52,203 bases of DNA from a virus: positions 1 through 52,203 of IMG/VR virus record IMGVR_UViG_3300038825_000220; one strand, written 5' to 3'. Shown one piece after another: positions 5,601 through 34,056 of this stretch. The notes under the pieces were generated by a model. The model was not told the DNA's origin, searched no databases, and saw nothing but the letters and a program-made list of their open reading frames with translations. Numbering within the stretch: the first letter of the stretch is position 1; each line of letters opens with the position of its first letter. The translations under genes and the position numbers were made by a program.

Positions 5601-6434
5601 GATGAAATACACTTCTACGCTAACAATGTAGAACAAGTTTATCTTGGCGATAATATCTTTGGCCCACAATCAGATAGTGATGTTGATTTAGGTTCTTCAT
5701 CAGTTAGATGGAAAGATGCTTATGTAGATAGCATTACTGTAACTGGAGAAGTTGATGCTGCTTCATTAGATATATCTGGTAATGTAGATGTTGATGGAAC
5801 ACTAGAAACAGATAACCTTACAATCGGTGGAGCGCAAGGCAGCGATGGACAAGTACTAACCTCAACAGGAAGCGGAGTAGGTTGGGAAAATGCTGCGGCA
5901 GGTGGAACTAGCGGTATGCAAGTTTTATCTACAGTAACAGCATCTAATTCAGCAACAGTAGATTTAGAAACTACTTTTGACAGCACTTATGATGATTACA
6001 TTATTATGATTAGTGATTATGTTCCTGCTACTGATGGAACAGATTTATATATGCAATATAAAATTGGTGGATCATATCAATCGGCATCGTCAAGTTATAA
6101 TACAGTTTATGTATATAACTATCACAGCTCAAGTAGTATAAGTATTGAAAATACAGGTGGTACAACAAGTTATATAATGGTAGCGCGTAGTATAGGAAAT
6201 GCTTATAACGAAGTTGGTCAGTTTAAAGTAACTCTTTCTAATGTGCATGATACAGGCAGAGCTACACCTGCATACTGTTATGGTAGTTGCAAGAACTCAA
6301 GCGGTGAATCACAAGGTGGTTTTTCTCATGGAATAGATGCAAGTGGAGGCGCAGTAACAGGAGTAAGATTTAAAAGCAGTACAGGCAATATTACATCTGG
6401 TAACTTTAGATTATACGGAGTGGCAAAATCATGA
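2628..6434 (+). CDS. Large repeat-rich tail fibre protein
   Basis: A 1,268-residue structural protein with no charged core. It is built from degenerate repeats: AELNILDGVTA-like units (near residues 345-390 and again near 620 and 695), LDISGNADIDGT-like units (near 255, 670 and 1045) and DLGSSSxxWKDAYVD units (near 105, 305 and 1025). These are typical of beta-helical or coiled fibre shafts in marine phages. The last ~170 residues, from about GMQVLSTVTAS, are non-repetitive and end FRLYGVAKS, as in receptor-binding tips. The stop overlaps the start of the downstream chaperone-like gene (ATGA). Confidence 0.8.
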   Translation: MGTSYVRQSSMADGDTITAALFNDEFNRLLTAFSYASSSTTGHQHDGTAGEGGNIPTIGDQDFLNKIAVDSTNNRWGFYVEVSSAAVEQIRIQDGAIVPVTDNDIDLGTSSLEFKDAYFDGTVTTDALVADTADINGGTVDGATIGANSATTIVGTTITANTAFVPDASDGAALGTSSLQFSDLYVADGAVVYFGDDQDVSLTHVADTGLLLSSTDQLQFGDSGTYIHQSADGVLDLVADTEIEINATTVDINGAVDISGNLEVGGNLTVTGTTTLNGGTLTLGDAATDNVVFGADVNSSIIPNTDSAYDLGSSSQEWRDLYIDGTAYLDAINFNGTAISASAAEINILDGVTASASELNIMDGVTATTGELNTLDGVTAVVGELNYLDLGSTAVGTAIASKAVVLDSNKDYTGIRNLTLSGDLTISGDDLTMGTNTSGHLLIADGTNFNPTAVGDLSEISTVANDDVLLAVDTSGGGLKKISRSTLVSGLAASGAISNVVEDTTPQLGGDLDVDGNALTSTSNGNIALSPNGSGVVRIDGNVDIQSGEIVLKNAGSVSNVKFYCESSNAHYTQLQSAAHSDYSGNVTLTLPASTDTLVGKATTDTLTNKTLTSPKINEDVAVTATATELNLIDGSTAGTVVASKAVVVDSNKDIASFRNVTLTGELDAATLDISGNADIDGTLETDALSLNGTAVTSTAAELNILDAVSRGSLIYGNSSGATALLTKGSASTVLTSDGTDIAWAAPAASGVTYVTKTANYTTQDLEGVLANTSGGAFTVTLPASPSAGAQVIVADSGDAFGTNNLTVARNGETIDGTAANLVLDITGVSVQFVYNGSTWRVYAQVGGKGGTAVNTTATQTLTNKTLTSAVLNTGVSGTAVLDEDNMASNSATKLATQQSIKAYVDSQVDSTEFVLEDDDGTEVTVSNAKEVKFIGSGITTNWTDTDNGTDGDPYDLTFTVDAAQTGITSLLATDIKIGEDDETKIDFETADEIHFYANNVEQVYLGDNIFGPQSDSDVDLGSSSVRWKDAYVDSITVTGEVDAASLDISGNVDVDGTLETDNLTIGGAQGSDGQVLTSTGSGVGWENAAAGGTSGMQVLSTVTASNSATVDLETTFDSTYDDYIIMISDYVPATDGTDLYMQYKIGGSYQSASSSYNTVYVYNYHSSSSISIENTGGTTSYIMVARSIGNAYNEVGQFKVTLSNVHDTGRATPAYCYGSCKNSSGESQGGFSHGIDASGGAVTGVRFKSSTGNITSGNFRLYGVAKS

Positions 6435-6721
6435 GTAGACATCACGCAACAGCTAATGGAAATATTCCTTTTACTGCTGAAGAAGAAGCTGAATGGGATG
6501 CTGCTGAAGCTGAATGGCTTTCAAAAGCTGACGATAGGGCTGCTGTTGAACGAAGAAGAAAAAGAAATGAATTATTATCTGAAACAGATTGGATGGCTAA
6601 TTCAGATGTTACAATGCCTGATAATTGGAAAACATACAGACAAGCACTAAGAGATTTATCAACACATAGTAATTGGCCTAACTTAGAAGATAGCGATTGG
6701 CCTACAAAGCCGGAGGCATAA
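6431..6721 (+). CDS. Tail fibre assembly chaperone-like protein, copy 1
   Basis: A 96-residue acidic protein translationally coupled to the fibre gene by an ATGA overlap. The C-terminal half has the pattern RNELLSETDW ... NWKTYRQALRDL ... WPTKPEA, which matches the phage tail assembly chaperone family found next to fibre genes (Phage_tail_APC type). It has a paralogue at 9957-10457 sharing this C-terminal module. It is expected to help fold or trimerise the fibre encoded just upstream. A nested ORF in another frame here is a shadow. Confidence 0.7.
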   Translation: MSRHHATANGNIPFTAEEEAEWDAAEAEWLSKADDRAAVERRRKRNELLSETDWMANSDVTMPDNWKTYRQALRDLSTHSNWPNLEDSDWPTKPEA

Positions 6722-9956: not shown

Positions 9957-10457
9957 ATGGCAAATGAATATCGTCTTAAATCAGACGGAAGTATAAAAAC
10001 TAAAGAAGAACTTATAGCAGCTAATAAAAATATGTCTATGCCTAAAGTATGGGGAGAGGGTGTATATGAAGCTTTAGGAGTTGACGTAGTTTTTGAAACT
10101 CCACAACCTACACCAAGCGGAGCTTATAAAAAAGTTGTACGAAATGGTGTTGAGCAAAATGCTAAAGACCAATGGGTACAGGCTTGGATTGAGCAAGATA
10201 TGTTTGCTGACACTACTGTTGATGGTGTGACAACAACTAAGGCAGAACATGAAGAAGCTTATCAAGCTACATTAGATGCTAATGCTGCTGAAAAAAATAG
10301 ATTAACTCGTAATAATTTGTTAGCTGAAACAGATTGGATAGGACTATCAGATGTTACAATGTCTTCTGATTGGGCTACTTATAGACAAGCTCTTAGAGAT
10401 GTTCCAAGTCAATCAGGATTTCCCCACGATATTACATGGCCTGAAAAGCCTGAGTAA
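9957..10457 (+). CDS. Tail fibre assembly chaperone-like protein, copy 2
   Basis: A 166-residue protein. The N-terminal ~110 residues form a distinct domain (starting MANEYRLKSDG, with NKNMSMPKVW near residue 25). The C-terminal ~55 residues (RNNLLAETDW ... DWATYRQALRDV ... ITWPEKPE) are a clear paralogue of the 6431-6721 chaperone. The pair suggests each chaperone serves the fibre gene just before it, here the 652-residue receptor-binding protein. Confidence 0.7.
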   Translation: MANEYRLKSDGSIKTKEELIAANKNMSMPKVWGEGVYEALGVDVVFETPQPTPSGAYKKVVRNGVEQNAKDQWVQAWIEQDMFADTTVDGVTTTKAEHEEAYQATLDANAAEKNRLTRNNLLAETDWIGLSDVTMSSDWATYRQALRDVPSQSGFPHDITWPEKPE

Positions 10458-11554: not shown

Positions 11555-11962
11555 ATGATTGGACTTGTAGATAAATTAATTGGGCCTGTATCAAGTATCT
11601 TAGATAAGTTTGTAGAAGATAAAGATCAGCGTTCACTGTTAGCACATGAAATAGCAACCATGAGCGAGAAACACGCTCAAGCAACTATACAAGCTCAATT
11701 AGAAATAAATAAAACTGAAGCAGCACATAACAGTTTATTTGTAGCAGGATGGCGTCCGGCTATAGGATGGGCTTGTTGTTTGGGTATGGTCGGTAACTTT
11801 CTTATAATTCCATTTGCTAACTTTGCATTAGCATTAGCTGATACAGATATAGTTATACCATTAATTGATTTACAAACTATGATGCCTGTTCTTTTAGGTA
11901 TGCTTGGTCTAGGTGGACTAAGAACTTTTGAAAAGGTTAAAGGTGTTCAAAGAGAGAAATAA
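11555..11962 (+). CDS. Holin of the 3TM family
   Basis: A 135-residue protein. The amphipathic N-terminus (IGLVDKLIGPVSSILDKFV) and charged helix to about residue 64 are followed by the family hallmark AGWRPAIGWACC at about 68-79, then hydrophobic segments to about residue 125 and a basic tail (EKVKGVQREK). This matches three-transmembrane holins that let muramidase reach the cell wall. It is preceded by AAAGGACATAAATT, a good ribosome site. The lysozyme partner lies at 19224-19724. Confidence 0.8.
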   Translation: MIGLVDKLIGPVSSILDKFVEDKDQRSLLAHEIATMSEKHAQATIQAQLEINKTEAAHNSLFVAGWRPAIGWACCLGMVGNFLIIPFANFALALADTDIVIPLIDLQTMMPVLLGMLGLGGLRTFEKVKGVQREK

Positions 11963-15123: not shown

Positions 15124-16350
15124 ATGGGATTCTTTAAAAAAATATTTAAAGGCATAGGTAAAGTCTTTAAAAAGATAGGCAGAGGAATTAAAAAGGTTGT
15201 CGGTAAAGTCGGCAAGTTTATGAACAAAATAGGTATTGTAGGTCAAATAGCTATGGCGTTTATACTGCCGGGAATAGGGAATGCCTTAATGAATGGTATA
15301 GGGGGTATTGCCTCCAGTATGGTTACTAATAGTTTAGGAGGCATTGGTGGTGCATTAGTTAAAGGTGCAGGTCATATTGTTAGTGCTGCTCATAAATTTG
15401 TAACTGTTGGCAAAAATGCTTTTAATACTGTAACTCAAGGTGTTACTAAATTTATAGGAGAGTTTGGTAAAACAGCTTTAAATAAAATACCCGGAGTTGA
15501 TATAAAAAGTGCTTCTAAAAACTTTTTTGGAAAAGGAGGAGCTTGGGAAACAGTACAAAAAGATATAGTTAAAAATGCAGGTAATATAGCTAATCCGTTT
15601 AGAAAAACTGTTAATGTAAGAGAAGGTATGGATATAAAAGACCTTGTAAACAGCACTGGAGTTTCTAAAGAAAGAATACAAAATATGAATCTAGATTTAG
15701 ATTTAGATAATCTTAAAGTTGGGGATACAATAAATTTTGATGCAGGAACTTTAGATGATGCAGTTGATCCTTTTACTAGAATAGGTTCTGATGTTGGAAA
15801 AGATTTTAGAAAGGCAGCAGTAGATAGTAGTGGAGCACCTCAAGATTTTATGAATACTGTTGAGCTTGATAAATCCGGTCAAGTAACAGCAGATAGTTTA
15901 TTAGCTCCTAAACCTTTACCTGATACTTATACAGAAGCAGCAGTACAGGGCAGAGCGCAAGAATTTATAAATGCTCAATCAAGTGGAACTGTTGGTGCGC
16001 CTCCTCCCCCACCTGATCCTTCTTTAGTTAGTAGAATGAAAGATGAGATAACAAGCAGGTATGATTTTGATAAAGCTCCTATTGCTAGTACACTAACAGC
16101 AGTTCAAGATGTAGGCACAGCTTCTCAACTTATTGATCCTGAAACTCTAGAGTATGGAGGTTCTTATAACACTCCAATGTATGTAGGAGCAGGATCACAA
16201 GATATGGATGTTATGGTTCCAACAGCACAAAGAAATTTTCAGGCTTATTCAAATATGGGTCAGTACGGATCAACATCTAGAATATATGATAGTATTTTAA
16301 TGAATCCTGTGTCTACTTGGTCTAGAGATTTATCATCTAGATTTTCATAA
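15124..16350 (+). CDS. Internal virion protein with cationic amphipathic N-terminus and LysM-like segment
   Basis: A 408-residue protein. Residues 1-40 (MGFFKKIFKGIGKVFKKIG...) form a strongly cationic amphipathic helix like membrane-active peptides. Residues 41-75 are hydrophobic and glycine-rich. Around 162-205 the pattern NVREGMDIKDLVNSTGVSKERIQ...LKVGDTINF resembles a LysM peptidoglycan-binding repeat. The C-terminal part is low-complexity and proline-rich (PPPPPDP). The features fit a protein that enters or crosses the host envelope during DNA ejection. That role is inferred from composition and position. Confidence 0.6.
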   Translation: MGFFKKIFKGIGKVFKKIGRGIKKVVGKVGKFMNKIGIVGQIAMAFILPGIGNALMNGIGGIASSMVTNSLGGIGGALVKGAGHIVSAAHKFVTVGKNAFNTVTQGVTKFIGEFGKTALNKIPGVDIKSASKNFFGKGGAWETVQKDIVKNAGNIANPFRKTVNVREGMDIKDLVNSTGVSKERIQNMNLDLDLDNLKVGDTINFDAGTLDDAVDPFTRIGSDVGKDFRKAAVDSSGAPQDFMNTVELDKSGQVTADSLLAPKPLPDTYTEAAVQGRAQEFINAQSSGTVGAPPPPPDPSLVSRMKDEITSRYDFDKAPIASTLTAVQDVGTASQLIDPETLEYGGSYNTPMYVGAGSQDMDVMVPTAQRNFQAYSNMGQYGSTSRIYDSILMNPVSTWSRDLSSRFS

Positions 16351-16953: not shown

Positions 16954-19167
16954 ATGAGCGAAATAGATCAACTAGGTAGTTCTCTTTTAAACAGACAAAG
17001 AGCCACTAGAAAAAGAACTGAAAAAAGATTAAGAAGAGATACGCGAAATCAAGCTGTTCTTAACTTAGCTGCTAAAGGTGTGCAATTAGTTAATAGTGCA
17101 TTAAAGAATCGTGCTGATACTTTTGTTAATAACAATGAAGATTTAATAGGTCAAAAAGTTCTTTATCAACAAGCTCTTAATGATAGAGATTCAATAATAA
17201 CTAACTATAGTGCAGCTCAACAACACGCAGGTGGAGTAGAAGAATATTTAACAGAACAGTTTTTACCTGATGTAACTAATTCTTTAAGTTTAAATATTGA
17301 CGAAACTCAATATACAGCAGATTCTATAGCAAAATTAGCTAGAACAAAAGCTAGAGAAGCAGCAAAAGAATATATGCCCCAGTTTCAAACAGCATATGAA
17401 GCAGCTTTAAAGCTTCCAGATATGGACGATTATGATGCTTTTGTAGCTACACAAACTAGAGGTAAGAAAGCTACTAATGTAGGTGGATACTTAGTAAATT
17501 CTGTTTTGCGTAATATTAATGAACAATCTCCAGAAGATACAGATAAAGAAATAGTAGATGCTGTATTAAATAGTAGGTTTGGGGATAATGCTCAAGCTGT
17601 TATAAATGCTAAAAAAGCTATGGATCAAGGTTATTCAATAGGTAAAGCTGAAAGGTTATCAGAGAGTATCGAAGATGTTAAAGAAAATGGTTTAGAATCT
17701 ATAGGCGTTAAATTTATAAAAGCTGATCCAGTTGAAAAAGAGATAACAACTTTTGGAATAACAAGAAAAGTTACTGTAATGAATGTAACTTATTCTTTGC
17801 CGGGAGGAGGAGTTGTAACACAAGTAGAACCATTCTTTAATTTTAATAAAGAAACAGGGGAAAGAATTGAATCTGATACTGTATCTGTAGATGCTACAAA
17901 AGATTATTTAGCTTTTATAGCTGCTACAGGTAATCGTTCTTTTGAAGGCATTGATAGTATTACTCAAGAAGATGTAAATAAGTTTTCTAATTCAATTCAA
18001 TATCAACCTTTAGACCCTGATGGTACTAGAGTTACTAACTATGGAGTATTTGGTCAACCCGGAAGAACTTTTTCTATAAAAGCAGTTGACATAAATGGCA
18101 ACCTAAAAGGAGTTTATGTAGATAAATTTGTTCCTGATGAAATATTATCTGATAGTCAAAAGCTATCACAGATTAATGAAAAATTAGTAGAACAACAACA
18201 AGGTAATTTTCAAGAAACACTTAGAGATACTATTATTTCTACAAGTATGTTTGGTGGTCAAGAAAGCGCACTTTCCGAAGATATGATATTAGTTGCTTTT
18301 AGTGGCGATGCAGATGTAGGTGAAAAATTAATAGATGAAGATAGAGATGCAATTATTCAAAGTATTTATGATCCTGCAATGAGACGTTTAGCTGTTGATA
18401 CTCAAAATTTAATAGAACAATTTTCAGAATTAGATGAAGCAGTAGCTAGAAGATTAACTAATGTAGCTGCTGTGCAAAGTATTAAATCAGGATTAAAAGA
18501 TAACAATACAAAGTTTATACAGGATAGTACATTTTTAAATACAAAAGATTTTAAAAATACATTAATGATATATGGTGATGCTGCAATAGAAGAAGTTACT
18601 CCGGGTAATAGAATAGAAATACCTGTATCTGTTTATAATGAAATGGTTATAAATACATTAAATGAAGTTGAGCCTATTGAAAATGATATTCTTAATGATA
18701 ATAGAAAAGAAGCAAGAAGATTATTAGCAGGAGCAGAAGAATTTAAAAACCATACTATAGCTGTTAGTGATGAGTTAGAAGAAGCTTTAAAGTCAACTCA
18801 TAATAATACAGATGAAATTATAAGTTCAACTGGAGATGTTAGAGTTATTCATATACTAGAGCATTTCGATAGACTCGAAGCAGGACGAACAGGCGATAAT
18901 AAAGTTGGAGCAGAAGTAACTCCAGAACCTCCAAAAGAAATTAATTTAGAAAATTATAGAGGAACTGTTTCTCCTGAAGTAAGAGATGTTATAACTCCTG
19001 TTATAGAAACTTTAGAAGCTAATGTAGAAAGAAATAGAACAAGACAAGAAGCTATATCCGCATATGTAAAAGAAGGAATGGATCAAGGTTTAAATGCAGC
19101 AGAAGCAAATAGATATGCTAAAGATAAAGTAGATTCAATGGGAGACAATATAGTACTCCCAAAGTAA
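16954..19167 (+). CDS. Internal virion protein, likely -1 frameshift-fused to lysozyme
   Basis: A 737-residue protein, charged and helical, with no signal peptide. It lies between other internal virion genes and the GH24 lysozyme gene. Its last sense codons read CTC CCA AAG before the TAA, forming an in-phase slippery heptamer CCCAAAG (19158-19164). Slippage by -1 would enter a frame that is open through 20 linker codons into the lysozyme ATG at 19224, giving a 923-residue fusion. T7-like phages also place a wall-degrading domain on an internal ejection protein, so the fusion makes biological sense. The unslipped product would end PK-stop. Confidence 0.7.
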   Translation: MSEIDQLGSSLLNRQRATRKRTEKRLRRDTRNQAVLNLAAKGVQLVNSALKNRADTFVNNNEDLIGQKVLYQQALNDRDSIITNYSAAQQHAGGVEEYLTEQFLPDVTNSLSLNIDETQYTADSIAKLARTKAREAAKEYMPQFQTAYEAALKLPDMDDYDAFVATQTRGKKATNVGGYLVNSVLRNINEQSPEDTDKEIVDAVLNSRFGDNAQAVINAKKAMDQGYSIGKAERLSESIEDVKENGLESIGVKFIKADPVEKEITTFGITRKVTVMNVTYSLPGGGVVTQVEPFFNFNKETGERIESDTVSVDATKDYLAFIAATGNRSFEGIDSITQEDVNKFSNSIQYQPLDPDGTRVTNYGVFGQPGRTFSIKAVDINGNLKGVYVDKFVPDEILSDSQKLSQINEKLVEQQQGNFQETLRDTIISTSMFGGQESALSEDMILVAFSGDADVGEKLIDEDRDAIIQSIYDPAMRRLAVDTQNLIEQFSELDEAVARRLTNVAAVQSIKSGLKDNNTKFIQDSTFLNTKDFKNTLMIYGDAAIEEVTPGNRIEIPVSVYNEMVINTLNEVEPIENDILNDNRKEARRLLAGAEEFKNHTIAVSDELEEALKSTHNNTDEIISSTGDVRVIHILEHFDRLEAGRTGDNKVGAEVTPEPPKEINLENYRGTVSPEVRDVITPVIETLEANVERNRTRQEAISAYVKEGMDQGLNAAEANRYAKDKVDSMGDNIVLPK

Positions 19168-19199
19168 CTGAGGAAGCTTCTGAACCCACCGAAGTTTCC
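19158..19199 (+). promoter_or_regulatory. Programmed -1 ribosomal frameshift signal
   Basis: The heptamer CCCAAAG (X XXY YYZ type, correct phase) is at 19158-19164. The zero-frame stop TAA follows directly, giving a 7-nt spacer (19165-19171). Then comes a hairpin with arms 19172-19180 (GGAAGCTTC) and 19191-19199 (GAAGTTTCC): nine pairs including one G-U, with a 10-nt loop. All three parts match bacterial frameshift sites in order and spacing. The -1 frame contains no stop between here and the lysozyme gene. Activity itself is unproven. Confidence 0.75.
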
Positions 19200-19223
19200 G
19201 ATAATCAACAAGAGGATCAAGAC

Positions 19224-19724
19224 ATGGCTCAACCTTTTAGTGGCGGTAATATTTCTGAAAAACGTTTAAAAGAAATAACTTTACCTTCAGATACCGCAAC
19301 ATCTTTATTAATTAAAAGATTTGAAAACTTTACACCCGTAGCTAGTTTTGATGTTAGACAAAACACTAATGGCTTTGGCACAGAAGCTACATCTGCTAAT
19401 GAAGAAATAACATTAGAAGAAGCTCAAGAAAGATTAATGGCTAGAATAAATAAAGATGCTGATTATATTAGAGACTTTGGAGAAAGATATAACTATAACT
19501 TTACAGATAATGAAGTTGCTGCTTTAAATTCTTTTATATTTAATTTAGGTCGTGGTGCTTTAAATCAAGTAACTGCTAATGGTACAAGGTCTAAAGAAGA
19601 AATAGCATCTAAGATGCTAGAGTATAATAGAGCAGGTGGTAAACAACTAGCAGGTTTAGTTAAGCGTAGAAAAGATGAACGAGATGTATTTGTAGGAGAA
19701 GCCATACTAGGCGGTGGTGATTGA
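19224..19724 (+). CDS. GH24 (T4-type) lysozyme
   Basis: A 166-residue glycoside hydrolase 24 muramidase that cleaves the MurNAc-GlcNAc bond of peptidoglycan. The catalytic Glu34 (KRFENF) and Asp43 nine residues later (FDVRQNTNGFGT) keep the T4 lysozyme spacing. The family blocks NEVAALNSFIFNLGRGAL and YNRAGGKQLAGLVKRRKDER follow. It has no signal peptide. It can be made free from the ATG at 19224 (AGAGG about 8 nt upstream) for lysis with the holin. It can also be made as the C-terminal domain of the upstream virion protein by -1 frameshifting. The upstream in-frame region encodes an acidic linker VTEEASEPTEVSDNQQEDQD. Confidence 0.9.
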   Translation: MAQPFSGGNISEKRLKEITLPSDTATSLLIKRFENFTPVASFDVRQNTNGFGTEATSANEEITLEEAQERLMARINKDADYIRDFGERYNYNFTDNEVAALNSFIFNLGRGALNQVTANGTRSKEEIASKMLEYNRAGGKQLAGLVKRRKDERDVFVGEAILGGGD

Positions 19725-22700
19725 TGGGAAAAGCTAGGACAAAAAATATAAGTATTTTTGATAGTATAAAACCAGAAGATGTAAGTCCTCCCGATAAAAA
19801 AACATATGGACTAAGTACTAGTTATGCTACAAAAACTCATGCCGATCTTAGGCGTGACCCAAAGTTTCAGGAAGAGTCTGAAAAACTTCTTAGCTATTTA
19901 GCAGAGCAACAAGGAGCAGCAGAAGCTTTAACAGGAGGCTTAGTATCTAGTGATATTTTTGAAACTCTTAGAGATGAAGAAGGCCGTTTGCTTACAGTAG
20001 CAGATAGGGCTAGAGTTTTAAGAGATGCTCCAGAAGATATAAAACAAACCTATAGTTATTTAAGAAATGAGTTTGAAAACTCTAAACCCGGAAGTTATGG
20101 AGAAGTAGCTAAAGCAGTTTTTGATAGGGGAGTAGATTTATTTACTGACCCTGTTAATTTAGCTTTTGCTTTTTTAGCTCCGGCTGTAGGTAGTGCTGCA
20201 ACAAAAGCATCTACTACTGCTTTGTCTAAAACATTATCTAGCGGTGCAGGTAAAGAAAGTGTTAGAAGAACACTAAACAATATATCGGCTGCTAACGTAG
20301 GTAAAGCTACAGCTTTTGAGGGTGCAGCGTGGACAGGCATAGAGAATGCAAACAGACAAGATATAAATATAACTACAGGAATACAAGATTCTTTTAGCAA
20401 AGGTGACTTTGGTTTATCAACAGTTGCGGGTGGTATATTTGGTGGAGCTTTAGGATACGGAGCTACTAGAATGTTTTCTAGAAGCAGCCCTAGTGTTGCA
20501 GAAACTCCAGTAACTACAAAGAAACCTTTGTATACTGAACTAGAATCATACACTCCATCTAAAACTTTAGAAACTGACGGAGATGTTGATGCAAACATTG
20601 AAGCTACTTTAACTGGTGTGTTTGATAATGTTAAATTAAGAACTGATAGAACGGGCAAACAATATTTTGATAGAAATAATAATCCTGAAGTAGACGGAAA
20701 ATTATTAGATAGATTAGGAAAAAGTTTAAATAATCAATATGACGATATAAGAGTAGCTAATATTATTTTAGGTATAAAGGATACTATTTTTAAAAGATTA
20801 ACACCTAGAGAAATTGATAGAGGTTTAAATATTGCTACAGGGCGAAGAGAAATACAAGTAAATGATATTGATCCAGAAGTTTTAAATTTATTTAATCAGT
20901 ATGGTTTAACTAATAATGAACTTCAAATAGCTATTAGAGAAGTTAGAGATACATATATAAAAGATGGTCAAAGAACTGCAACTGGAAAATTAAAATCTGG
21001 ACAAAAAGTTAAAGTAACTCAAAGAATAGATTTAACTGATGAAGACATTGGCAACCTTTCAGAAAAACTAGCAAGTGATATGGGTGGTGGTCAAAGAACT
21101 TCAGATGTTTTAGCAGATGCAATAAGAGAAGCAAATGCAACTAGAGGTATAAGTGCTAGTGCTAAAGAAAGTTCTATATTAAGCAGAACTTTAAATCAAG
21201 CTTCTAGATTAAATGCTAAATATGGTACAGGTAAAGTTGCAGGTATTCTTGATCCTTATGTAAACTCCGCGCCTAATGTAATAGGTTCCTTACAACAACG
21301 AATTACATCTTCTCTTTCTAACTCATGGAAAAGAGGAGAAGCAGTTATACGAGATACAAATGATTATGCAACTGTTTTTGATAGAGAGTTTGGAAGACTA
21401 GCTGCTCCTTTTAAAGATATATATGAACCTGTTTTAACTTTAGCTAAAGGTAATTATAAAGAAGAAGTAGACCTTTTATTATCTAATGCAATTAGAACTG
21501 GCGATATGCGTGAATTATCTAGAAAAACGCAACATTTAAGTAAAGATGTTAGAAAAGGATTAGTAAACATAGTAGATTTTTCTAGAAACCAATTAAAAGA
21601 AATAGGCGATGAGTTACAAGCAAGAGGATTTGTAACTAATTTAGTAGATAACTATTTACCTAGACTTTGGAAACGCTCAGAAATTGAAGCAGATAAAGAT
21701 AACTTTATTAATCTTTTAGAAAAGAATGTTGCGTTTGAAGGAGATGCAGCCGCTAGAAGAAAGGGTGCTGAAGAATTATATGAAGAATTACTAAACATAA
21801 AGTATCAGTTAGGTAATGAATCTGGTACAGGTATGAACAGTTTTTTTGCTAGAAGGCAATTAGTTTTAAAAGATGAAACTGCATTTACTAAATATTTAGA
21901 TAATGATTTAAATAATGTAATGATAAGCTATCATAGATCGGCTGCTAAAAGTTTTGCTAAAGATAGTGTATTTAATGCAAGAAACTTAGAAGAGTTTAGA
22001 AGCAAATGGATTCCTGCTATGCAAAAAGAAATGCAGGAAAATGGAGCAGGTGCAGATATTATTCAAAAAGCTGAAAGAGATATGATAGCTGCTTATCAAA
22101 ATATTACAGGAGAAGGTTTAGATAGATTTGGGGAAACAACTCAAAAACTTGCAGACAGTTATATGTTAGCAAATAGAATGGCTTTATTACCGCTATCAAC
22201 CTTATCAAGTCTTACAGAGATATTTATAAATATTTCAAAGGCAGGGCCAAGTACTGCGTTTGCAGCTTATAGAGATGCAATATTTAATGGCTCTAAAAAA
22301 ATGTACGATGACTCATTAAATGGTTTAGAAAAATCTTTTAACATGACCAGAAAAGAAGCTATGGCAGAGCTTAACTATATGGGTATTGCATTAGATCAAG
22401 CCTTTGCTGACTATGCTGATAGACTAGGAGGAGATGCTTTAGCTAGTCCTACTATGAGAAAGATTAGTAATAAGTTTTTTAGATTTACATTACTAGATCA
22501 ATGGACAAGAGGAGTTCAAACAGCTTCATATATAACAGGTAAAAGATTAATAGCAGAAAATTTAGAAAGTATTGCAGCACATATGCCATTAATACAAGCC
22601 GGAAAAACTTCTAGAAGAGTAGAGCGACAAATAGCAGAACTTTCTGATCTTGGTATAGATTATAATGAAGGAGTAGATTGGATAAAAAGAGGGGCAAGTG

Positions 22701-24154
22701 TAGACGATAGATTTTATTCTAAACTAAAAGAAAGTGCAGGTGTCTATACTAATGAAGTTATTTTAAATCCTAGCGCACAAGCAGGTATAAAGCCTATGTA
22801 TATGTCTAATCCTAAGACAGCTATACTAGGTCAGCTTCTTGGATACCCTGCTGCATTTACAAATACTATATTAAAAAATGTTGTAAGAGAATCAGTAAGA
22901 AACCCTGAAACTTTTTTAACTCAACATATACCTGCTGCTGCTATGATGACAGGTGTAGCTGTACTAACTAATGCTATAAGAACACAAGGAGAATCTTTAG
23001 AGGAAGACCCTGAAAAAGTTATAGGTTCATCAATAGCTAGATGGGGCGGTAACGGTTTACCCGCAGATATGTTTATGAGAGGCAGAACTGCTGCACAAAT
23101 TTATCAAAGCCCTACAGCTTATGTTACTGGACTAGGCCCAGTATGGGGTGACACGTACAAACTTATAACAAGTGGAGATATATTTTCTATTTTAGGGCAA
23201 AAGGTTCCGGGCTATGGAGCTTTTAATGCAGTCTTTGGAGCCTCTGAAGTTACTGAAGATTTTCCTGCTGAATATAGACAATTCCTTAGAGATATAGATA
23301 GAGGCTTTCAAGACGTTTCTGTTCCTCCACAGGAGTCTACACCTAGAAGAGACTTTAAAAAAGGCGGTGAAGTTTATAATGTAATGCAAGCTCCAATAGA
23401 ACCTGATGAACGTATAGATAAAATGACAGGATTATCTTATGATATACAAGCAGGGGAAGCTTTCATAGATGAAGAAGATCGTATGTTTAAAAAAGAAGGC
23501 GGTATAATAAAAAATATTATAAGAGAAGGAGCTAAACTATTAGGCTTTGATGATGACAGACAAGTACAAATTACTGCTGATGCTGTTGACTTAACAAATC
23601 AAATTGTTCCTTATAATAAACGAGTAGGTGTCAAAAGAGTTATACCTATTAATAAAGAGGTTCAAGGCCCACCAGAAAAAGAACAGTCTAATCCTTATAC
23701 TGCTGCACCAACTAAAAAAGTTAATGCAGAATATAAAATGACTACTGATCAATTAAGAAAAGCAAAAACAAATAGAAATCAATTTAAAATTGATGGTGAT
23801 GAAGAAGTTTTTGATATAGTTAATCATGCACTATTTGGATATGAATCAGGCGAAAACATTTATAGTGCAGTTGGCGGTCAACTAAAAGAACTTTTACAGG
23901 GTATAGAAAGAACAATAGATGCTCCTCCAGAGTTTAAAAATACAGCATATAAAACAGAATTAAAAGATGCTTGGAATAATCAATGGGGAATAAATCAAAG
24001 ACGTAAAAATTTAAGCAGAATTGAATTTGATATGAATCTTGCTCAAGCATTAGCAAGAACTAAACAAAAACTGCAACGTGGCGAAAAATTAATAATAGGT
24101 GAAGATTTAATAATTAATCCTGAAGATGCTTATTTTCCTTTTCCAAATGGATAA
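19724..24154 (+). CDS. Giant internal virion / DNA ejection protein
   Basis: A 1,476-residue protein, the largest gene, starting at ATG 19724, which overlaps the lysozyme stop (TGATG). An upstream TTG in the same frame is less likely. A hydrophobic stretch near residues 140-170 (DLFTDPVNLAFAFLAPAVG) and another near 1075 (AAAMMTGVAVLTNA) may insert into membranes. The rest is helical and charged. Size and position match T7 gp16-like ejectosome proteins that are injected with the genome. I see no transglycosylase motif here, consistent with the wall-degrading domain being on the neighbouring lysozyme gene. Confidence 0.7.
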   Translation: MGKARTKNISIFDSIKPEDVSPPDKKTYGLSTSYATKTHADLRRDPKFQEESEKLLSYLAEQQGAAEALTGGLVSSDIFETLRDEEGRLLTVADRARVLRDAPEDIKQTYSYLRNEFENSKPGSYGEVAKAVFDRGVDLFTDPVNLAFAFLAPAVGSAATKASTTALSKTLSSGAGKESVRRTLNNISAANVGKATAFEGAAWTGIENANRQDINITTGIQDSFSKGDFGLSTVAGGIFGGALGYGATRMFSRSSPSVAETPVTTKKPLYTELESYTPSKTLETDGDVDANIEATLTGVFDNVKLRTDRTGKQYFDRNNNPEVDGKLLDRLGKSLNNQYDDIRVANIILGIKDTIFKRLTPREIDRGLNIATGRREIQVNDIDPEVLNLFNQYGLTNNELQIAIREVRDTYIKDGQRTATGKLKSGQKVKVTQRIDLTDEDIGNLSEKLASDMGGGQRTSDVLADAIREANATRGISASAKESSILSRTLNQASRLNAKYGTGKVAGILDPYVNSAPNVIGSLQQRITSSLSNSWKRGEAVIRDTNDYATVFDREFGRLAAPFKDIYEPVLTLAKGNYKEEVDLLLSNAIRTGDMRELSRKTQHLSKDVRKGLVNIVDFSRNQLKEIGDELQARGFVTNLVDNYLPRLWKRSEIEADKDNFINLLEKNVAFEGDAAARRKGAEELYEELLNIKYQLGNESGTGMNSFFARRQLVLKDETAFTKYLDNDLNNVMISYHRSAAKSFAKDSVFNARNLEEFRSKWIPAMQKEMQENGAGADIIQKAERDMIAAYQNITGEGLDRFGETTQKLADSYMLANRMALLPLSTLSSLTEIFINISKAGPSTAFAAYRDAIFNGSKKMYDDSLNGLEKSFNMTRKEAMAELNYMGIALDQAFADYADRLGGDALASPTMRKISNKFFRFTLLDQWTRGVQTASYITGKRLIAENLESIAAHMPLIQAGKTSRRVERQIAELSDLGIDYNEGVDWIKRGASVDDRFYSKLKESAGVYTNEVILNPSAQAGIKPMYMSNPKTAILGQLLGYPAAFTNTILKNVVRESVRNPETFLTQHIPAAAMMTGVAVLTNAIRTQGESLEEDPEKVIGSSIARWGGNGLPADMFMRGRTAAQIYQSPTAYVTGLGPVWGDTYKLITSGDIFSILGQKVPGYGAFNAVFGASEVTEDFPAEYRQFLRDIDRGFQDVSVPPQESTPRRDFKKGGEVYNVMQAPIEPDERIDKMTGLSYDIQAGEAFIDEEDRMFKKEGGIIKNIIREGAKLLGFDDDRQVQITADAVDLTNQIVPYNKRVGVKRVIPINKEVQGPPEKEQSNPYTAAPTKKVNAEYKMTTDQLRKAKTNRNQFKIDGDEEVFDIVNHALFGYESGENIYSAVGGQLKELLQGIERTIDAPPEFKNTAYKTELKDAWNNQWGINQRRKNLSRIEFDMNLAQALARTKQKLQRGEKLIIGEDLIINPEDAYFPFPNG

Positions 24155-24174: not shown

Positions 24175-25461
24175 ATGAGATATTTACTACTAGTTGGGGC
24201 TATGTTGTGTAGCTCTATGGCTCATGGAGCACCTACTTATGTAGATGATGTAGCTGAAATAATAAATAATAATTGCGTTGTGTGTCATCGTGATGGTGGT
24301 ATTGGCCCAATGCAGTTTGAAACCTATGATCAAGTTAGACCGTGGAGTCCTTTGATACAACTTAAAGTTGCTAACAGAGAGATGCCTCCATATGCCTATG
24401 ATCAGGGTATAGGAATACAAGAATTACATGGTGATTGGAGGCTCTCAGAGGCCGATATAGCCACGATAGTAGAGTGGGTGGATACCGGATCAGAGTATGG
24501 AAATACTGATATTGTAGTACAACCTCCGGCCCTCTCAGACCCCGATCAGTGGAACTTCTACGGAGAGTTTGGAGAGCCTACAATGGTTATTCCTTCTACT
24601 CCTATAGATATACCCGCCAGTGGCAATGACCTATGGCACAAACACAATGTAGCTAGTGGATTGACAGAGGATAGATGTATTAAAGCTATCCAAGTTAAAC
24701 CGAGAGGCGATGCTAAGAGTGTAGTGCATCATGCCAATAGCTCCGTTAATGTTGATGGTGAGAGGTATGGGATGCTTACAGAGTATGCTATGGGTAAGTG
24801 GGGCGAGATAGTACCTGAAGGTGTCTGTCGTACTATACCTGCTAACTCTGAGATAGCTTGGGACATTCATATGTTCCCCGGTGGTTTAGGAGCTATAGCA
24901 CCCGGAACTATTATTGAAGATAATGTTGTAGAGATAGGACTATGGCTATACTCTCCAGAGGAATCTAAAGCACTTACATACACTCAAGACCTCAAGCTTT
25001 ACAGGATAAGCGATCAAGATGATATTGTTATTCCTCCTCATGGTTATCACATGACTCAAGGATTCCACTCCTTTGATCACCCTGTTCGCATTGATTCATG
25101 GCAACCTCACGGACACCTAAGAATGAACGCAGCAAGCTTTGAAATCTTTTACCCTGATACTGGAGTAACAGAGCAGATTAGTCAGGTATCTAACTGGAGT
25201 GCAACATGGCATCACAGTCACATATATGATCCAGACTTTGCACCTTTGATTCCAACAGGAGCAGTACTGGTTCTTAAACAGTGGTACGACAACACTGAAG
25301 ATAATCCTAACAACCCTGATGCAGATCAGTGGGTTTATGGAGGCAGTAGAACAGGAGATGAAATGACTCACGCTTGGATAGCAGTAACCCATCTTGATGA
25401 AGAAGGCTACCAAGAAATTTTAACTGAAAGAGAAAATAGGAGAATGATAGCCGGACAATGA
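24175..25461 (+). CDS. Exported c-type cytochrome fused to a PHM-like copper monooxygenase domain
   Basis: A 428-residue protein with a signal peptide (MRYLLLVGAMLCSSMAHGA, cleavage near residue 18). A heme c site CVVCH is at 34-38, with a likely distal Met70 in REMPPY. From ~110 on it resembles type II copper, ascorbate-dependent monooxygenases: HH at 185-186, HxH at 312-314 (HGHLR), then NPNNPDADQW and a Met ligand candidate in DEMTH at 397. It would be periplasmic. It is not a virion gene type and looks like an auxiliary metabolic gene; substrate unknown. GC is visibly higher than in flanking genes, suggesting recent transfer from a bacterium. Confidence 0.75.
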   Translation: MRYLLLVGAMLCSSMAHGAPTYVDDVAEIINNNCVVCHRDGGIGPMQFETYDQVRPWSPLIQLKVANREMPPYAYDQGIGIQELHGDWRLSEADIATIVEWVDTGSEYGNTDIVVQPPALSDPDQWNFYGEFGEPTMVIPSTPIDIPASGNDLWHKHNVASGLTEDRCIKAIQVKPRGDAKSVVHHANSSVNVDGERYGMLTEYAMGKWGEIVPEGVCRTIPANSEIAWDIHMFPGGLGAIAPGTIIEDNVVEIGLWLYSPEESKALTYTQDLKLYRISDQDDIVIPPHGYHMTQGFHSFDHPVRIDSWQPHGHLRMNAASFEIFYPDTGVTEQISQVSNWSATWHHSHIYDPDFAPLIPTGAVLVLKQWYDNTEDNPNNPDADQWVYGGSRTGDEMTHAWIAVTHLDEEGYQEILTERENRRMIAGQ

Positions 25462-32321: not shown

Positions 32322-34056
32322 TCCAGTTATCTCCTATATGATACTCACCATCTAAAGGACACTTCATATCAAACTGAAGCCCTGCATTTTTAATTGCTAA
32401 CACACCTAGTTTACCTACTTGCTGTGCATCTTTTTCAGCTACTTCTATCTGCCATTCATCATGTATGTTAGCGACAAAGTGGGCATCAAGATTATGTTCT
32501 ATAATGTATTGGTTTAAAAGCTCTAAAGCTTTCTTCATTACTATACTACCACCGCCCTGTAATAAAGCATTGAGGGCTGAGTGTGCTGATCTAATATAAA
32601 TCTTACGACCATCTAACCCTTTGATGAAACCTTTTGCTGCTGCTCTCGTAACTCTGTTTTTAAGAGTTCTAAGTGATGGGAGATTATCAAGGAAACGTTG
32701 TTTAAGTCTTTGACCATCTTGTTTGCTTCCTCCAACCACGCTTCCAATTTTTTCATTTCCCGCTCCGTATATGAAGGCGTATATAAAAGTTTTTGCCTGA
32801 TTTCTAGATTTAAGTCCTGCAATTTTTTGATTAGCGGAGTGTATGTCTCCGTGTAAAATTTCATCAGTGAACTCCTTATCGTTCATATAATGTGCAAGCA
32901 TCCTAAGTTCTAGCCCCGAAGCATCTATACCTACTAGGTTATAACCTTTGGGTACTATCCAACAAGCTCTGCAATCTTTTCCGTAAGGAGAGCTAGAACT
33001 AGGAACTTGTGCAAGGTTAGGTTCTCTATGAGTCATACGCCCTGTTATAGTTCCATTAGGATTAACAAAGCCGTGAACTCTACCATCATCATCTGCATTA
33101 TCTAACCAAGATTTAATTTGAGCTATACGTTTTTGGTACATCAAATAGTCAGCTATAAGTTTAGCTTGAGGTATAGAATCTATTCTTTTAAGAGTTGATT
33201 CATCTACAATAGGCTGACCAGTGGGAGTAAACTTACTAGGTTTCCAACCAAACTTCTGTAAGTATTCTCCTATTTGTTTTCTAGAACCTAGATTAAACTC
33301 TGTTCTACTAATTCTTGCGACTTGATCGTGAGCTTCTAAAGCATCATACTCATCAGAGTTTAACCTATACTTAGTACCATCAGAAGCTACAGCCATCCTA
33401 GATAGTTTACCTGCTTTAGTTTTAACAGGATAAAGAATTAAAGTATGTTCCTCTGGCTTAAATTCTTTATGTACTTCTGCAACTGTAGCATCTAACTTAT
33501 CTTTTAATGTAGCCAACAAAAGCGTAGCAAACTTAACGTCTAACAAGAATCCCTTATCTCTTTGTTTAGTTAGTATACCTGCTATGCTTTGTTCTAAGTT
33601 TATAGAGTCTCTAGAAAACCCATGCTTTTCTTTACTCAAAGCATCATAAACTCTTTTGTTAAGTAGTACATCACGCTCACAATACTTAACCATATCAATA
33701 GAGAATGTTTGATAATTATTAAACTCTATCTTAGGGCAATCTAATCTAAAACCCCAAGACTCAAGGCCATGATTACCCTCTCGTACTGGATTGAATAATC
33801 TAGAAAGAACTAAAGTATCTATTAGTTTTTTGCCGGACAAATCAACGCCAGTAAGTTTCTTCAGTACAGGTATATCAAAACCTATAATATTATGACCTAT
33901 AAGTTTGTCAGCATCCTGTAAAGCTTGAAGACCCTTATCAAGTTTGTCACCCCAATAAGAACAAACGTGTTCTGTATCGACATCACAGGTACTTAAACAC
34001 CAAATCTTAGTGGCATTTAAGTCATCTGTTTCTATGTCAAATACTAAAGAGGTCAT
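32308..34056 (-). CDS. Family A DNA polymerase with 3'-5' exonuclease
   Basis: A 582-residue polymerase. The proofreading domain shows Exo I FDIET (Asp7, Glu9), Exo II HNIIGFDIPVL (55-65) and Exo III YCERDVLLN (about 128). The polymerase domain shows motif A DASGLELRM, motif B RNQAKTFIYAFIYGAG and motif C NIHDEWQIEV, all intact. It is shorter than T7 polymerase and has no 5'-3' nuclease. I do not see the DnaJ-like insert described for HMO-2011 polymerase. It overlaps the helicase gene by 4 nt. Confidence 0.95.
   Translation of the reverse strand: MTSLVFDIETDDLNATKIWCLSTCDVDTEHVCSYWGDKLDKGLQALQDADKLIGHNIIGFDIPVLKKLTGVDLSGKKLIDTLVLSRLFNPVREGNHGLESWGFRLDCPKIEFNNYQTFSIDMVKYCERDVLLNKRVYDALSKEKHGFSRDSINLEQSIAGILTKQRDKGFLLDVKFATLLLATLKDKLDATVAEVHKEFKPEEHTLILYPVKTKAGKLSRMAVASDGTKYRLNSDEYDALEAHDQVARISRTEFNLGSRKQIGEYLQKFGWKPSKFTPTGQPIVDESTLKRIDSIPQAKLIADYLMYQKRIAQIKSWLDNADDDGRVHGFVNPNGTITGRMTHREPNLAQVPSSSSPYGKDCRACWIVPKGYNLVGIDASGLELRMLAHYMNDKEFTDEILHGDIHSANQKIAGLKSRNQAKTFIYAFIYGAGNEKIGSVVGGSKQDGQRLKQRFLDNLPSLRTLKNRVTRAAAKGFIKGLDGRKIYIRSAHSALNALLQGGGSIVMKKALELLNQYIIEHNLDAHFVANIHDEWQIEVAEKDAQQVGKLGVLAIKNAGLQFDMKCPLDGEYHIGDNWSETH

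Follow-up and report, generated by a model that had tools for sequence, protein, structure and literature searches.

The window analysed here, a stretch of 52,203 nt, is taken from IMGVR_UViG_3300038825_000220, a marine virus of bacteria. On its plus strand, an open reading frame (ORF) of 737 aa (16954-19167) ends in the codons CTC CCA AAG TAA. These codons contain the slippery heptamer C_CCA_AAG in the zero phase (19158-19164), recognized from the sequence itself, its relatives and the published literature (PMC5009743), and the zero-frame stop TAA (19165-19167) follows directly, in the conserved context TAAC. A spacer of 7 nt (TAACTGA, 19165-19171) separates the heptamer from a predicted stimulatory hairpin (19172-19199), proposed on the basis of covariation and energies, in which GGAAGCTTC (19172-19180) pairs with GAAGTTTCC (19191-19199) through 9 bp, including one G-U pair, around a loop of 10 nt (19181-19190). 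The -1 frame starts with GTA at 19164 and remains open through a linker of 20 codons, VTEEASEPTEVSDNQQEDQD (19164-19223), to the ATG at 19224 of a GH24 lysozyme that ends at 19724. The predicted fusion comprises 737 + 186 = 923 aa and 102 kDa, compared to 82 kDa for the unshifted product. An initial sequence-only reading had described this arrangement, and its account of the in-phase heptamer with the adjoining stop, the spacer, the stem and the loop agrees with the DNA base for base; the open -1 frame and the 923-residue fusion that it predicted are likewise correct by sequence.

Published data place the signal in a favorable range. C_CCA_AAG has been rated highly shift-prone in E. coli, which may not be the host of this phage, slippage on A_AAG after other codons is known, and spacers of 5-9 nt are those commonly studied (PMC5009743). 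A further possible stimulator is the Shine-Dalgarno-like GGGAG (19140-19144, plus strand) located 13 nt 5' of the heptamer. This site was noticed post hoc. Its duplex energy of -7.3 kcal/mol ranks in approximately the best 7% of the coding background or better. Resembling sites are present in the related loci L014, L015, L016, L002 and L055, the strongest being that of L055 (AGGAGG), and absent in L034.

The lysozyme (19224-19724, plus strand), which could start at its own ATG (166 aa) or form the C-terminal domain of the fusion, matches PF00959 along the entire model (positions 1-125 of 125; E 1.6e-16; 61 bits, cut-off 22.3). The predicted catalytic Glu, Asp and Thr (E54, D63 and T68, in the numbering of the 186-aa shifted part) are invariant in eight sequences, and their Asp-to-Thr spacing falls one residue short of that in T4 lysozyme. 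No relative of this lysozyme was returned when bacterial and archaeal genomes were scanned. A Shine-Dalgarno-like AAGAGG (19210-19215, plus strand) is positioned 8 nt 5' of the ATG. The lysozyme stop overlaps the ATG of a giant ORF (19724-24154, plus strand), which encodes a probable gp16-like ejection protein with matches to structural-protein families (phrog_7348, phrog_6958). In L002 (5561-10384) and L003 (2278-7149), this giant protein contains an extra, metalloprotease-like stretch with an HExxH motif (HELNH and HELDH), which is apparently lacking from the 1477-aa protein of the window. The window also encodes a 428-aa ORF (24175-25461) with weak cytochrome c-like matches below the Pfam cut-off and no PHROG match.

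The 737-aa protein itself yielded no Pfam, PHROG or PDB-fold match and only a weak AlphaFold model (pLDDT 67). Homology to T7 gp15 was not demonstrable by sequence or fold, and the phage isolate collection contained no relative. Within the ejection gene block, its gene precedes the giant gp16-like gene. A survey of this block with the conserved MGFFKK gene as anchor (window 15124-16350) assembled 80 loci, and ORF lists from 26 of them reveal a near-constant order, in which the MGFFKK gene is followed by genes of ~190 aa and 440-770 aa and then by the giant gene. The last two abut in most of the 26 loci and the lysozyme, where present, lies between them. By gene order, it is plausible that the 737-aa protein is a gp15-like ejected internal virion protein. 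The label 'internal virion protein' given by the sequence-only reading is thus backed by position in the gene block, and not by any family or fold match. The capsid protein of the window is closest to those of HMO-2011-like podoviruses (HTVC115P, 59%).

We propose that a programmed -1 ribosomal frameshift very probably yields two forms of one virion protein at this junction. The majority of ribosomes would terminate at the TAA and release the 737-aa protein. A minority, held up by the hairpin while on C_CCA_AAG, would shift back to CCC_AAA, translate the linker and then the GH24 lysozyme, and thereby produce the 923-aa fusion. Gene order suggests that the upstream protein belongs, as a gp15-like component, to the ejection set of an HMO-2011-like podovirus; in that case, the fusion would equip the ejected assembly with a restricted number of wall-cutting domains that act in entry. 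Slippage itself, its efficiency, the presence of the fusion in virions and its role in entry are steps that we infer from the DNA.

Comparison with relatives lends considerable weight to this proposal. Scans of IMG/VR gave nine distinct junctions: those of the window, L002, L003, L014, L015, L016, L034, L055 and L005. Duplicates were merged (L008 and L010 with L034, L004 with L005; the L055 junction also occurs in L043), with L004 and L008 dropped because they are 100% identical to L005 and L010, and the independence of the junctions is argued from their unrelated upstream sequences. Distant GH24 domains in L035, L037, L046, L048 and L050, which belong to other large proteins and are read in frame with them, were not counted. 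Eight of the nine junctions have the -1 arrangement of the lysozyme, and in seven of these the heptamer and stop read CCCAAAG TAAC. The eighth, L055, reads GAG GAA AAG TAAC; its weaker heptamer, GGAAAAG, has kept the A_AAG half and the phase and lost the P-site half. All nine junctions retain the stem, which shows compensatory changes. In L005, a C7 run brings the upstream protein and the lysozyme into one frame of 919 aa. In L052, a homologous upstream protein is fused in frame to a lysozyme of the same type within a 995-codon open frame that contains neither heptamer nor stop, and the C-terminus of this upstream protein is nearly identical to that of L055, which has the frameshift arrangement. 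Related phages therefore have either the predicted frameshift or a constitutive fusion, with equivalent products. Conservation of the heptamer and stem, which the sequence-only reading had named as a check, is thereby largely borne out, and no relative with the lysozyme at this place was found to leave it unlinked; L052 lacks the signal but is fused in frame. With heptamer or variant, stop, stem and frame kept, and in-frame fusions elsewhere, the fusion by -1 frameshift is strongly supported at the sequence level.

The signal is also rare by chance. Among the 66 window ORFs of at least 80 aa, one other ends in an XXXYYYZ heptamer (83 aa, 32613-32864, minus strand), and CCCAAAG directly before a stop occurs at 4 of 426 distinct ORF ends from 83 related loci, all four of them belonging to this cassette. 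Compared with dinucleotide shuffles, the stability of the hairpin corresponds to a z of -3.4 in the window and of -2.4 to -5.6 in the six relatives tested. When the nine junctions are aligned, the 12 pairs of the stem are formed in 88.9% of cells, six cells are changed on both sides, and the covariation score is reached by none of 500 shuffles; sliding the stem to other registers drops pairing to 30-54%. Since relatedness can inflate such counts, we regard the covariation as support and not as proof. Changes in linker length among relatives preserve the frame. The 60-nt linker displays no third-position or codon-position bias, and the codon-position test gave no support for selection on the shifted frame; protein-level selection on the linker is therefore not seen. 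Separately, a 290-aa ORF in L121 (283-1155), unrelated to this cassette, carries an in-phase AAAAAAA that lies 6 nt ahead of its stop codon, and its -1 frame would extend it by 155 open codons.

The most serious alternative is that the two ORFs are simply separate genes. An ordinary endolysin would then be translated from the ATG at 19224, directly or by re-initiation after the TAA, the hairpin would be an element of translation or RNA processing, and the heptamer would be incidental. An ATG with a Shine-Dalgarno-like site is indeed present in seven of the nine junctions, the linker lacks codon-position bias, and the phage encodes a holin (11555-11962, plus strand; phrog_3427, PF11351), its only recognized lysis partner, with no other recognized endolysin. 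We nevertheless consider separate genes unlikely because of the in-frame relatives L005 and L052. Moreover, a usable ATG is lacking in L005, where no start codon precedes the catalytic Glu, and in L016, where a free lysozyme could start only at poor TTG or GTG codons. The heptamer and its phase also persist behind unrelated upstream C-termini. Finally, a profile search of the 80 surveyed loci detected the lysozyme in nine, all of them L052 or junctions already listed, and each of the nine is joined to the protein before it, either in frame or through the slip arrangement. No unlinked lysozyme was found at this place among the 80 loci; as many of these are fragments, the absence of a lysozyme from some of them is not firm.

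The proposed frameshift could coexist with a function of the same enzyme in host lysis. One GH24 domain was found in each of six related records, and no second, so that a holin accompanied by a single GH24 domain fits dual use in entry and exit, as the sequence-only reading had suggested, without proving it. In most of these phages, the free enzyme may act in lysis. This role cannot hold for L005, since it offers no start codon, and with L016 also deficient, an own lysozyme start is not a property of all members. Elsewhere in the window, an ORF at 1015-2625 matches PHROG 5107 ('amidase', lysis) along almost the whole of its length and contains no Pfam domain; the label may be wrong because the ORF lies among tail genes. 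Two further ORFs (6431-6721 and 9957-10457) both match tail fiber assembly (PHROG 4912), which suggests a duplication or two fiber modules.

A second alternative is that the heptamer and stem are conserved merely as the edge of a block exchanged by recombination, with no role in translation. In BLASTN comparisons of the window with L002 and with L003, similarity resumes precisely where the heptamer begins, at 19158, following dissimilar DNA upstream. L002 and the window differ in their upstream proteins (26%) and share the linker and lysozyme (96%). The sharp boundary favors this alternative. However, heptamer and stem are still present in L034, although its linker and lysozyme share only 47% identity with those of the window, the bases of the stem change in a compensating manner, and the reading phase is preserved. 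We therefore give this explanation very little credence, and less still to the idea that a single ORF only appears broken through a mistake in sequencing or assembly, or was recently disabled by mutation. The in-frame L005 and L052 might lend this idea some appeal, but we rejected it because the same break, stop and stem recur in eight distinct junctions from different assemblies.

Returning to the programmed frameshift, the restart of similarity at the heptamer has a counterpart in L016. There, the cassette occurs in the same phase behind a different protein of 259 aa without detectable similarity to that of the window, and behind every upstream C-terminus the phase is the one from which a -1 shift reaches the lysozyme. 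These observations suggest that the signal and lysozyme have been exchanged between phages as a unit. It is about an even call whether this extends to a portable recoding cassette, consisting of heptamer, stop, hairpin, linker and lysozyme, which phages would transfer between ejection proteins by joining at the slippery site and which would place the enzyme on a set minority of copies irrespective of the C-terminus of the upstream protein, lineages alternating between slippage and constitutive fusion.

Among phage isolates, the closest capsid relatives are the HMO-2011-like podoviruses HTVC115P, HTVC103P and HMO-2011. Their late-gene order is similar, yet unlike in the window, the late proteins tested contain no GH24 domain and the slip signal is absent. 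The late genes of HTVC115P, a Pelagibacter phage, include gp46 (L109 13511-13960), annotated as a toxin-activating lysine-acyltransferase. Related GH24 domains (~40% identity) do exist in the ejection-gene region of Colwellvirinae and similar marine T7-like phages, such as Marinomonas CPP1m, Vibrio D530 and Shewanella phiY2. There, in contrast to the window, the domain is encoded in frame at the N-terminus of the large ejection protein downstream.

A wall-cutting domain on an ejection protein is biologically expected given known precedents: some gp15-like ejection proteins, those of the E. coli phages K1E and K1-5, have lysozyme activity, in T7 the activity resides on gp16, and swaps of wall-cutting domains between ejection proteins have been described (PMC8954989). 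That review makes no mention of frameshifting. As in K1E and K1-5, and in T7 with its gp16 transglycosylase domain, the enzyme of the window would be carried by a member of the ejection set. What would be unusual is the production of the wall-cutting domain by frameshift, which, unlike in those phages, would leave most copies of the protein without enzyme. L055, with predicted slippage, and the related L052, fused in frame, provide a natural comparison for how many enzyme-bearing subunits are needed per ejection machine. Standard gene calling lists two genes at such junctions, although a fusion of the two is probably synthesized.

We found no report in the open-access literature of a lysozyme joined to a virion protein via frameshift, and the text of a recoding review (PMC5009743) does not mention lysozyme, endolysin or peptidoglycan. 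Frameshifting in phage structural genes is otherwise known, with -1 examples in lambda G/GT, gene 10 of T7 and T3, and the capsid gene of Lactobacillus phage A2 (PMC5009743). These systems likewise use a heptamer and a 3' structure to append a sub-stoichiometric C-terminal extension to a morphogenetic protein. What is appended in those cases is either a domain of a tail chaperone or a capsid extension that is often Ig-like, whereas in the window it would be an enzyme. If our interpretation is correct, this junction represents a case of frameshifting that doses a virion entry enzyme.
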